From positions 1-33,811 of IMG/VR virus record IMGVR_UViG_3300011440_000043: a stretch of 33,811 nt of DNA; one strand, given 5' to 3'. Every line of letters starts with the position of its first letter. Within the stretch, counting starts at the first letter, position 1. The DNA is from a virus. Shown piece after piece: positions 28,272-30,695 of this stretch. A program made the position numbers and the translations under genes. Under the pieces are notes generated by a model. It searched no databases. It saw only the letters and a program-made list of their open reading frames with translations, and was not told the DNA's origin.

Positions 28272-28592
28272 CTAGTCGTTTGTGCCGGTTTTCAAGGCCT
28301 TGAGCAGGCGGATCGCCTGACGCCTTGTATTGTCGTCCATGTCGCGCAGTAGATCATCGGCGCTGGGCTGGGCGGGATCGTTAAATAAATCCCTCGGCGT
28401 GCAATTTAATGCTTCGGCAATAGCTCCCTGCGCGCCTAGCAGGATGTCCCGTTCGCCTGTCTCCCACCGTGAAATGGTGCTTTTGGTGGTGCCGATCCGG
28501 GCGGCCAGCTTCTCTTGGCTTAATCCCCGATGATCTCGCCATTCCGCGATGTAGAGCCTGGTGGGTTTTTTGGGACCGATCCGGGTAACCAT
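28272..28592 (-). CDS. CI-like XRE repressor without peptidase domain
   Basis: A 106-residue protein. The HTH domain of residues about 13-70 is clear: AEWRDHRGLSQEKLAARIGTTKSTISRWETGERDI (recognition helix TKSTISRWE). The tail (SADDLLRDMDDNTRRQAIRLLKAL) is a short helix, probably for dimer formation. It lacks the S24 self-cleavage domain of lambda CI, so prophage induction may depend on an antirepressor or other signal. It is divergent from the Cro-like gene, with operators between them, the arrangement of a lysogeny switch. Confidence 0.85.
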   Translation of the reverse strand: MVTRIGPKKPTRLYIAEWRDHRGLSQEKLAARIGTTKSTISRWETGERDILLGAQGAIAEALNCTPRDLFNDPAQPSADDLLRDMDDNTRRQAIRLLKALKTGTND

Positions 28593-28626: not shown

Positions 28627-28678
28627 TTATCCTAGATGGCAACTTTTGACTTGACCGTCCGTTGCCTACATGGCAACG
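28627..28678. promoter_or_regulatory. Switch operators and rightward promoter
   Basis: A perfect palindrome CGTTGCC-TACAT-GGCAACG (28660-28678) shares the core GTTGCC-N5-GGCAAC with the leftward operator. A half-matching copy lies at 28627-28643 (TTATCC-TAGAT-GGCAAC), centred 34 bp upstream, about three helical turns. Between them are TTGACT (28646-28651) and TTGACC (28651-28656), candidate -35 hexamers for the cro promoter. The full palindrome covers where the -10 would lie. Confidence 0.72.
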
Positions 28679-28686
28679 TGCGACGC

Positions 28687-28887
28687 ATGAATAAACTCCG
28701 CGAATATCGAATTTCACTCGGGCTTTCACAGGCCGACCTCGCTGCTTCGGTCGGGGTCCAGAAAGCCACCATTTCACGAATTGAAAAAGGCAAGCGCACC
28801 CCTTCGATGGGGCTCGTTGCTCGCATTGTGGAGGCGAGCGACGGCGCATTGTCTGCTGACGATTTTCTGCCTGCCAAGAGTGCGTAA
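28687..28887 (+). CDS. Cro-like XRE regulator
   Basis: The ATG at 28687 was chosen because the operator palindrome ends 8 nt before it. An in-frame ATG at 28636 would put the operator inside the gene. The 66-residue product MNKLREYRISLGLSQADLAASVGVQKATISRIEKGKRTPS is a bare HTH of the Cro/XRE type (recognition helix QKATISRIE). No ribosome site is visible; with a -35 at 28651-28656 the message could be nearly leaderless. Position, size and direction mark it as the first rightward gene. Confidence 0.82.
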   Translation: MNKLREYRISLGLSQADLAASVGVQKATISRIEKGKRTPSMGLVARIVEASDGALSADDFLPAKSA

Positions 28888-28992: not shown

Positions 28993-29298
28993 GTGGAAAA
29001 CACCGCAAAGCTCACCCTCATAGAAGCACTCCAGCCCGAAATTGCTCCGTTCACCGACCAGGTTCACGAACTCATGCTTGAAAGCATTAGCAAAATTGCC
29101 GACCAGTGGATCGAGCAACTGTCCATCCTGCGCAAAAACGCCGACGCGCTAGAGGCGCAGATCATTGCCTGTGTCTCCAAAACCAAAAGCGACATCACCA
29201 CGCTGCACGAACTCGGTGCCAAGGTGGCCGAGGAAGCCAAGCGCGGCCAGGATGTTTGCAAGCAACTCGCCGACGGCGTTGGCAAAATCGCGCCGTGA
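28993..29298 (+). CDS. Early coiled-coil protein (101 aa)
   Basis: GTG 28993 follows AAGGAAAAC by 5 nt; a longer in-frame reading starting at 28900 covers the leader hairpins and is rejected. The product (MENTAKLTLIEALQPEIAPF) is all-helical with heptads in SISKIADQWIEQLSILRKNADALEAQI, probably an oligomeric coiled coil. It overlaps the GcrA-like start as GTGA. No known family was recognised. As the first gene after Cro it may be a regulator or scaffold of early proteins. Confidence 0.68.
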   Translation: MENTAKLTLIEALQPEIAPFTDQVHELMLESISKIADQWIEQLSILRKNADALEAQIIACVSKTKSDITTLHELGAKVAEEAKRGQDVCKQLADGVGKIAP

Positions 29299-29750
29299 AA
29301 CGCTATCCCTACCGAGTACCCTGGGAGCAAACACCCGGCATGTCGGAACGGCTGGCCGAGCTGCATGCCGATCCCAGGCATTACACCTGCCGCGAGATTG
29401 CCGGCATGCTGTCGCGGGAGTTTAAAAAGCGCGTGACCAGGTGCGCCGTGATCGGCAAGGCGCACCGGATGGCGCTGCCGTTTCGTGCGCTGCCGATCGT
29501 CGAGAAAAAACCGCGCAAGCAAAAGCGGAAATATTCGCCGCGGACCAGGGTTGTCGAGGCTCCGCCGCGTCCGCCGCGCATCGAGCACAACGGCGTGCTG
29601 ACCATCTACCAGACCGGCTATGGCGACTGTCGGTTTCCGATTGGTGAATTTCCGTTCGTGTACTGCGGCAAGGAGCAGATCGAGGGGCGGCCGTACTGCG
29701 CTGAGCATTACGCCGTGACGCATATTGAAGCGCGGAAGGTGTGGGCATGA
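29295..29750 (+). CDS. Phage GcrA-family transcription regulator
   Basis: The GTG at 29295 overlaps the previous stop as GTGA; longer readings are shadows. The 151-residue product contains the GcrA DNA-binding pattern (SERLAELHADPRHYTCREIAGMLSREFKKRVTRCAVIGKAHRMAL; AVIGKAHR is diagnostic) and the C-terminal GDCRFPIGEFPFVYCGKEQIEGRPYCAEHY (Cys112, Cys124, Cys135, His138). In Caulobacter GcrA binds sigma70 and activates promoters carrying adenine-methylated GANTC. I saw no GANTC in the phage regulatory regions near 28590-28690, 28888-28993 or 32942-33050, so host promoters may be the target. Middle (66-92) is basic linker. Confidence 0.85.
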   Translation: MKRYPYRVPWEQTPGMSERLAELHADPRHYTCREIAGMLSREFKKRVTRCAVIGKAHRMALPFRALPIVEKKPRKQKRKYSPRTRVVEAPPRPPRIEHNGVLTIYQTGYGDCRFPIGEFPFVYCGKEQIEGRPYCAEHYAVTHIEARKVWA

Positions 29751-30119: not shown

Positions 30120-30695
30120 ATGCGCCGCAATTGGATGCCGCTCTATATCCCCGATTTTCTCGCCGACACGACGCGCCTGTCGGCGGCGGAAACCGGCGCG
30201 TATCTGTGCCTGATCATGGATTACTGGATGCATGACGGGTTGCCGGATGACGACGCAAAGCTGGCGGCGATTGCACGGTTGCCGCTGAAGTCCTGGCGGC
30301 AGATGCGGCCGACCATCGAGGCATATTTTCAGGACGGCTGGCGCCACAAGCGGATCGACGCCGAGCTGACAAAAATGGTTGGAACTTCGATCCGGCGGAA
30401 AGAGGCGGCGAGCAAGGCCGGGACCATTTCGGCGATCAAACGGGCCAACGCAACGTCAACGCAGCGTGCACGTCACGTTGACGCTGCGTACACGCCGCGT
30501 GCACCCAGCGTGCACCACACTACACAAGAAAGAATTATTACTACTACCTGTTCCTCTGCTGCGCGCGAGGAACCGGCTGTGGATAACTCCGGCAGTTTGC
30601 CCGCTGAAACACCGGCTGGCTCGGCAGGAAAGCAAGGAATTACAAGCGCTTCCCCAGAACTCCAAGCCATTTTAGCGAGGAAATACGGCCGATGA
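30120..30695 (+). CDS. DUF1376 replication-associated protein
   Basis: Residues about 1-85 match DUF1376 (MPLYIPDFLADTTRLSAAETGAYLCLIMDYW... LPDDDAKLAAIARLP), a domain common in phage replication regions and thought to function near initiation. The C-terminal part is a low-complexity basic/Ser/Ala linker and ends with PELQAILARKYGR. GAGGA lies 8 nt before the ATG. The linker coding sequence carries an 11-bp repeated DNA array (separate entry) that protein repeats do not explain. The annealase gene starts in its stop codon (ATGA). Confidence 0.82.
   Translation: MRRNWMPLYIPDFLADTTRLSAAETGAYLCLIMDYWMHDGLPDDDAKLAAIARLPLKSWRQMRPTIEAYFQDGWRHKRIDAELTKMVGTSIRRKEAASKAGTISAIKRANATSTQRARHVDAAYTPRAPSVHHTTQERIITTTCSSAAREEPAVDNSGSLPAETPAGSAGKQGITSASPELQAILARKYGR
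30442..30518. repeat. 11-bp iteron-like array inside DUF1376 gene (candidate replication origin)
   Basis: Tandem 11-bp units start at 30453 (ACGTCAACGCA), 30464 (GCGTGCACGTC), 30475 (ACGTTGACGCT), 30486 (GCGTACACGCC), 30497 (GCGTGCACCCA) and 30508 (GCGTGCACCAC). A weaker unit lies at 30442. The core is RCGTNNAC. Eleven is not a multiple of three, so the periodicity is a DNA signal. An AT-richer stretch (30525-30545, with AATTATTACTACTAC) follows, like the unwinding region of lambda ori, which also lies inside an initiator gene. Confidence 0.62.

Follow-up and report, generated by a model that had tools for sequence, protein, structure and literature searches.

The iterons of phage lambda are 18–19 bp long. 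They lie in the middle of the initiator gene O, with an AT-rich tract after them, number four in lambda and six in Stx phages, and are each an inverted repeat (PMC7466680). DnaA-trios are triplets of the bacterial BUS oriC (PMC8287927), where three or more of them come after a DnaA box and a short spacer. The Rac prophage carries an active origin, oriJ (PMC3945230). YdaU of Rac belongs to the same family, DUF1376 (PF07120), as the protein discussed here. That family is formally one of unknown function; many temperate phages encode a member, the Rac prophage of E. coli K-12 among them.

The DNA that we analysed (33,811 nt of a soil phage, IMG/VR record IMGVR_UViG_3300011440_000043; hereafter the window) contains a DUF1376 gene with an array of 11-bp repeats in its linker-coding part. 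Judging from sequence, we consider it likely that this array is a phage replication origin lying within its own initiator gene, in the manner of lambda O, and that its iterons are bound by the DUF1376 protein. An in-gene iteron origin is a known kind; the family-wide 11-bp variant appears undescribed, and those parts of the literature covered by our search hold no report of 11-bp iterons in DUF1376 genes.

The analogy to lambda ori that an earlier note on this DNA had drawn fits the layout: an initiator gene, an array in a disordered linker, an AT-rich stretch and, in many relatives, a helicase or loader gene as neighbour. As in lambda ori, the in-linker array is kept at the DNA level and an AT-rich tract adjoins it. 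The repeats themselves are not of the lambda type, since there are about six direct units of 11 bp here as opposed to longer inverted-repeat iterons there. Gamma-proteobacterial DUF1376 phages resemble lambda in holding the gene between cII-like and DnaC/P-like genes; unlike in lambda, it is an ERF gene and not a recognised loader gene that comes after the DUF1376 gene in the window. The gamma-proteobacterial members are longer. The protein of the window has a short helix at its C-terminal end. Membership of the lambda O family (Phage_rep_O) was considered and rejected, as a Pfam search at E 0.01 gave PF07120 only.

A phased 11-bp array inside a DUF1376 gene

The features of the locus are as follows (window coordinates, strand):

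30120–30695, plus strand: DUF1376 (PF07120) gene, 191 aa, proposed to encode an initiator and to hold its own origin (Pfam and PHROG matches)
30129–30368, plus strand: DUF1376 domain, predicted all-helical and proposed to bind DNA (AlphaFold2 pLDDT mostly 92–98 per block)
30393–30443, plus strand: portion of the post-domain helix, RRKEAASKAGTISAIKR, residues 92–108, candidate specificity helix (within helix 77–118 of the model; Ala/Gly pattern at residues 97/100)
30447–30518, plus strand: 11-bp iteron array with six clean units at 30453–30518, core RCGTNNAC (autocorrelation, synonymous null, same period in relatives)
30517–30552, plus strand: stretch rich in AT and poor in G, putative DNA unwinding element (69% AT; family-wide profile)
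30534–30548, plus strand: ATTATTACTACTACC, a run of [CT]T[AT] triplets, DnaA-trio-like on the bottom strand (subfamily enrichment)
30550–30573, plus strand: inverted repeat GTTCCTC-10-GAGGAAC (present in the sequence)
30562–30567, plus strand: CGCGCG element (family-wide linker enrichment)
30578–30586, minus strand: strict DnaA box TTATCCACA, 60 bp past the array and the sole one of its kind in the window
30654–30686, plus strand: C-terminal predicted helix, residues 179–189, possible partner-binding peptide (AlphaFold2 model)

From 30453 onward the units read ACGTCAACGCA, GCGTGCACGTC, ACGTTGACGCT, GCGTACACGCC, GCGTGCACCCA and GCGTGCACCAC. All six match RCGTNNAC at a spacing of exactly 11 bp, as the earlier note had described; they lie between codons 110 and 133, and a weaker half unit (30442–30452) stands ahead of them. 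Autocorrelation over 30443–30520 reaches 0.67, 0.64 and 0.58 at lags 11, 22 and 33, with 0.11–0.33 at other lags, and in a ranking of lag-11 sites within the window the array comes first at 0.71, the runner-up site scoring 0.49. A motif scan found the array motif to be essentially absent from the rest of the window.

The earlier argument that such a period cannot come from protein repeats is correct in practice but goes slightly too far: a peptide repeat of 11 residues would yield a 33-bp period, and for this reason a synonymous test is the proper proof of a DNA-level repeat. We therefore rely on synonymous recodings of the array's 24 residues that follow the codon usage of the window (300,000 trials). 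The 42 lag-11 matches observed in the array, against 27.2 expected, were attained in five recodings, which confirms the lag-11 excess, and the observed sum over lags 11, 22 and 33 was reached in none. Between the window and a close relative (L002), synonymous changes affect 1 of 33 array codons and 30 of 108 codons upstream.

The product of 30120–30695 matches PF07120 at 67.4 bits (cut-off 30.1; E 1.4e-18, Pfam) and is thus a DUF1376 member; PHROG families annotated as 'primosomal protein' also match it (E 1e-17). In the AlphaFold2 model a helical domain of high confidence is joined by a long helix (residues 77–118), a linker of low confidence that is probably disordered (residues 119–178), and a C-terminal helix. 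In this layout the array encodes the end of the long helix and the linker, so that it sits in a part of the protein tolerant of change. Neither a PDB profile search nor Foldseek against the PDB gave a significant match, the best PDB folds being weak and helix-turn-helix-like (E about 0.5 or worse); significant structural matches were confined to uncharacterised phage proteins, namely viral DUF1376 and Lin1244-like proteins. The C-termini of relatives come in two alternatives, ...ARKYR or ...KGWV, which suggests that these endings are exchangeable partner-binding tails.

Period, cores and protein domain among relatives

Viral contigs as well as annotated phages and plasmids gave 81 non-identical DUF1376 genes, and we tested the linker of each against synonymous recodings of itself. 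Lag 11 had a mean z of +2.45 and lag 22 one of +1.73 (about 79 genes), with the next-best lags at about +0.6. With one gene per 50%-identity cluster (29 genes), the mean lag-11 z was 2.01 and the Stouffer z 10.8, while 150 other ORFs from the same loci, taken as a control, gave z = 0.00 ± 1.01. Multiple-of-3 lags had no excess (mean z -0.08); frame-keeping slippage would enrich just these lags and is hence an unlikely cause. Some genes (L052, L112, L108 and L102) show no array. Scans of genome contigs gave no relatives, whether the query was a single protein or an alignment.

Between lineages the linker peptides share little and the repeat cores vary, and the spacing alone is constant. Cores are ACGTCAACGTC, AAGCAAACG or AAGCCACGG in Bradyrhizobium-type phages, GCAAATGCA in Rhizobium phages and TTCAACGACCG in Rahnella and Pseudomonas members, and the linker of E. 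coli K-12 YdaU (Rac), encoded near 1421470–1421600 of NC_000913.3, has helically phased TTCAA-type sites 22, 11, 12 and 12 bp apart. The earlier note had looked to homologues with the same linker peptide but no 11-bp periodicity as evidence against its reading; we found instead that unrelated linker proteins still keep the 11/22-bp DNA period. Taken at the level of sequence comparison, these tests show that an 11-bp array is maintained at the DNA level in the DUF1376 linker.

Array and protein domain also travel together. In L005 and L015 the domains are 30% identical and the cores differ, and the DNA from the AT-rich stretch onward is 92% identical. This comparison shows that recombination has linked different domain-plus-array modules to one downstream piece, domain and array having been exchanged together. 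In most genes, Ala at both residue 97 and residue 100 of the post-domain helix accompanies AACG-rich cores, and Gly at both accompanies AAGC-rich cores. The pattern recurs in two domain backgrounds (L006/L007 against other window-type genes, and L063 against the L013/L048 type), with exceptions in L031, L102, L112 and Rac-type genes. That residues 97/100 track the iteron core is suggestive only, the independent switches being few, the residues picked post hoc and the exceptions as listed.

Elements behind the array

The AT-richer stretch that the earlier note placed after the array is borne out: 30517–30552 is the most AT-rich 36-mer of 28.6–33 kb and ranks among the highest 0.06% over the window as a whole. 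The same holds for the family, as the zone 18–42 bp behind the arrays is AT-enriched and G-depleted relative to synonymous nulls (63 genes). Further on, 44 of 78 DUF1376 genes have CGCGCG in their linker, against 11.4 ± 2.9 expected; for the DNA that encodes their domain the figures are 23 observed and 22.4 expected. The order of array, AT-rich and G-poor stretch, and CGCGCG element is repeated in many relatives. The inverted repeat that overlaps the CGCGCG element in the window is of doubtful function as a hairpin (synonymous null p 0.10, without conservation). An Rfam search gave no match in the window, and GC skew, which the earlier note had proposed as a check, has no clear switch.

Runs of at least three CTA/CTT/TTA triplets are found in the AT-rich stretch of 10 of 22 Bradyrhizobium-type genes, against 0.9 expected, and in 2 of 56 others; in the window, ACT makes up 27 of 484 Thr codons. 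Despite this run, the locus does not belong with the DnaA-trio or BUS systems, because the DnaA box is not where such a system needs one: there is none adjacent upstream of the run, and the trio-like run is confined to one subfamily. In contrast to BUS oriC, there is no DnaA box at the site of the iterons, and the one box present is on the far side. A DnaA-dependent oriC was likewise rejected, as the window has one strict box and no DnaA-box cluster. DnaA boxes are not a family feature either, the strict form occurring among DUF1376 genes only in the window and in L005. The DnaA-box and DnaA-trio likeness of the locus is thus weak.

Genes beside DUF1376 in relatives encode DnaC-like loaders or a helicase loader, a lambda P-like protein, or DnaB-like helicases, and in E. 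coli Rac ydaU is followed by the gene for the DnaC-like YdaV. The C-terminus of the Rac-SA53 copy contains a DnaT-like stretch that scores under NCBI's cut-off. In the window, no DnaB, DnaC, P-like or loader gene was recognised among the selected ORFs scanned, and ERF and YqaJ recombination genes come after the DUF1376 gene. An ORF upstream of it (29106–29750) has a GcrA cell-cycle regulator domain. In Rhizobium phage RHph_N28_2 (L053:4255-4830) a gene for a DnaA-like protein lies directly behind the DUF1376 gene.

A hairpin with an invariant 11-nt loop, TCACTTCGTTC, is found behind the array region in DUF1376 genes of Rhizobium, Acetobacter, Komagataeibacter and Microcystis phages, for example in L078, L106, L110 and L108; L117–L207 have it as well. 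Its stems compensate (CTTCC/GGAAG, CATCC/GGATG, GGTTCT/AGAACC). Inside phage replication-like genes the hairpin encodes the peptide SSLRSE. It also occurs in phage genes other than DUF1376 and in non-coding repeats; because it is found outside coding regions too, it may have other roles. A strong 11-bp DNA period ahead of the hairpin is seen in replication-like ORFs that the DUF1376 model does not match (L123, L143, L147, L176, L177 and L180).

Proposed initiation and alternative readings

Dozens of related phage genes share the design of an array beside readily melting DNA, which is therefore a probable replication start. The family-wide 11/22-bp period supports the candidate origin proposed in the earlier note; DUF1376 binding, melting, helicase loading and the origin activity itself are steps that we infer. 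In this scheme the DUF1376 domain and the helix that follows it would bind the array with one protein per helical turn, and hence from a single side of the DNA. Once assembled, the protein would melt the adjoining AT-rich stretch, the host DnaB helicase would be recruited next, either directly or through a loader, and theta replication would begin, much as with lambda O at ori-lambda. Points against the scheme are the DUF1376 genes that lack an array, the structural matches, significant only to uncharacterised phage proteins, and the fact that no DnaB, DnaC or P-like gene was recognised among the ORFs scanned in the window.

Regulators also use phased repeats, and two HTH repressor-like genes lie nearby (28272–28592 and 28636–28887), so the array might instead be an operator through which DUF1376 or a phage repressor controls transcription of the early operon, with no role as an origin. 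We regard this as unlikely: the array is deep in a coding region and away from a promoter, a motif scan gave nothing comparable around the repressor genes, and the AT-rich stretch and CGCGCG are coupled to the array across the family. It is rather improbable that a host protein such as DnaA or a nucleoid protein, and not DUF1376, binds the array, the gene merely housing the site. The perfect DnaA box 60 bp downstream and the trio-like run adjoining the array would fit such a protein, but the rarity of strict boxes among DUF1376 genes speaks against it, as does the fact that the iteron cores are unlike DnaA boxes and switch together with the DUF1376 domain.

Centromere-like sites hold tandem phased repeats as well, and recombination genes (ERF, YqaJ) are found downstream; in many phages, however, the relatives have a helicase or loader gene beside them, and no ParA-like neighbour was seen, which makes a partition, packaging or recombination site very improbable. 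Linkers are of low complexity and evolve fast, and a period could in principle arise in them by chance, from tandem slippage or a repetitive peptide. Here the synonymous nulls exclude the peptide as cause and the multiples of 3 favoured by in-frame slippage are not in excess, so that the family-wide test has already largely refuted this neutral reading, to which we give hardly any credence. We thus return to the origin within an initiator gene as the reading we prefer.

The design may extend beyond DUF1376. Ahead of the TCACTTCGTTC hairpin, 23 ORFs unmatched by the DUF1376 model have a mean z of 1.45 at lag 11 and 1.30 at lag 22, and this excess hints at an origin design wider than the family. 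It is quite possible, though somewhat less likely than not, that initiator genes of several unrelated N-terminal families, DUF1376 and others with the embedded TCACTTCGTTC hairpin, have one kind of origin in their linkers. Such an origin would combine 11-bp iterons in helical phase with a G-poor tract for melting and either a CGCGCG element or a hairpin, and the iteron sequence would co-evolve with the recognition helix. If true, this would be a general, unnamed origin architecture of temperate phages, and both the origin and the specificity of its initiator could be read from sequence alone.

For the DUF1376 family itself, an array selected at the DNA level provides a concrete candidate function, that of an origin-binding initiator, and would allow the origin to be placed, with a precision of about 100 bp, in dozens of phages. 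Moreover, because the cores vary by lineage and the spacing is constant, the family forms a natural data set for the specificity of initiators for their iterons.
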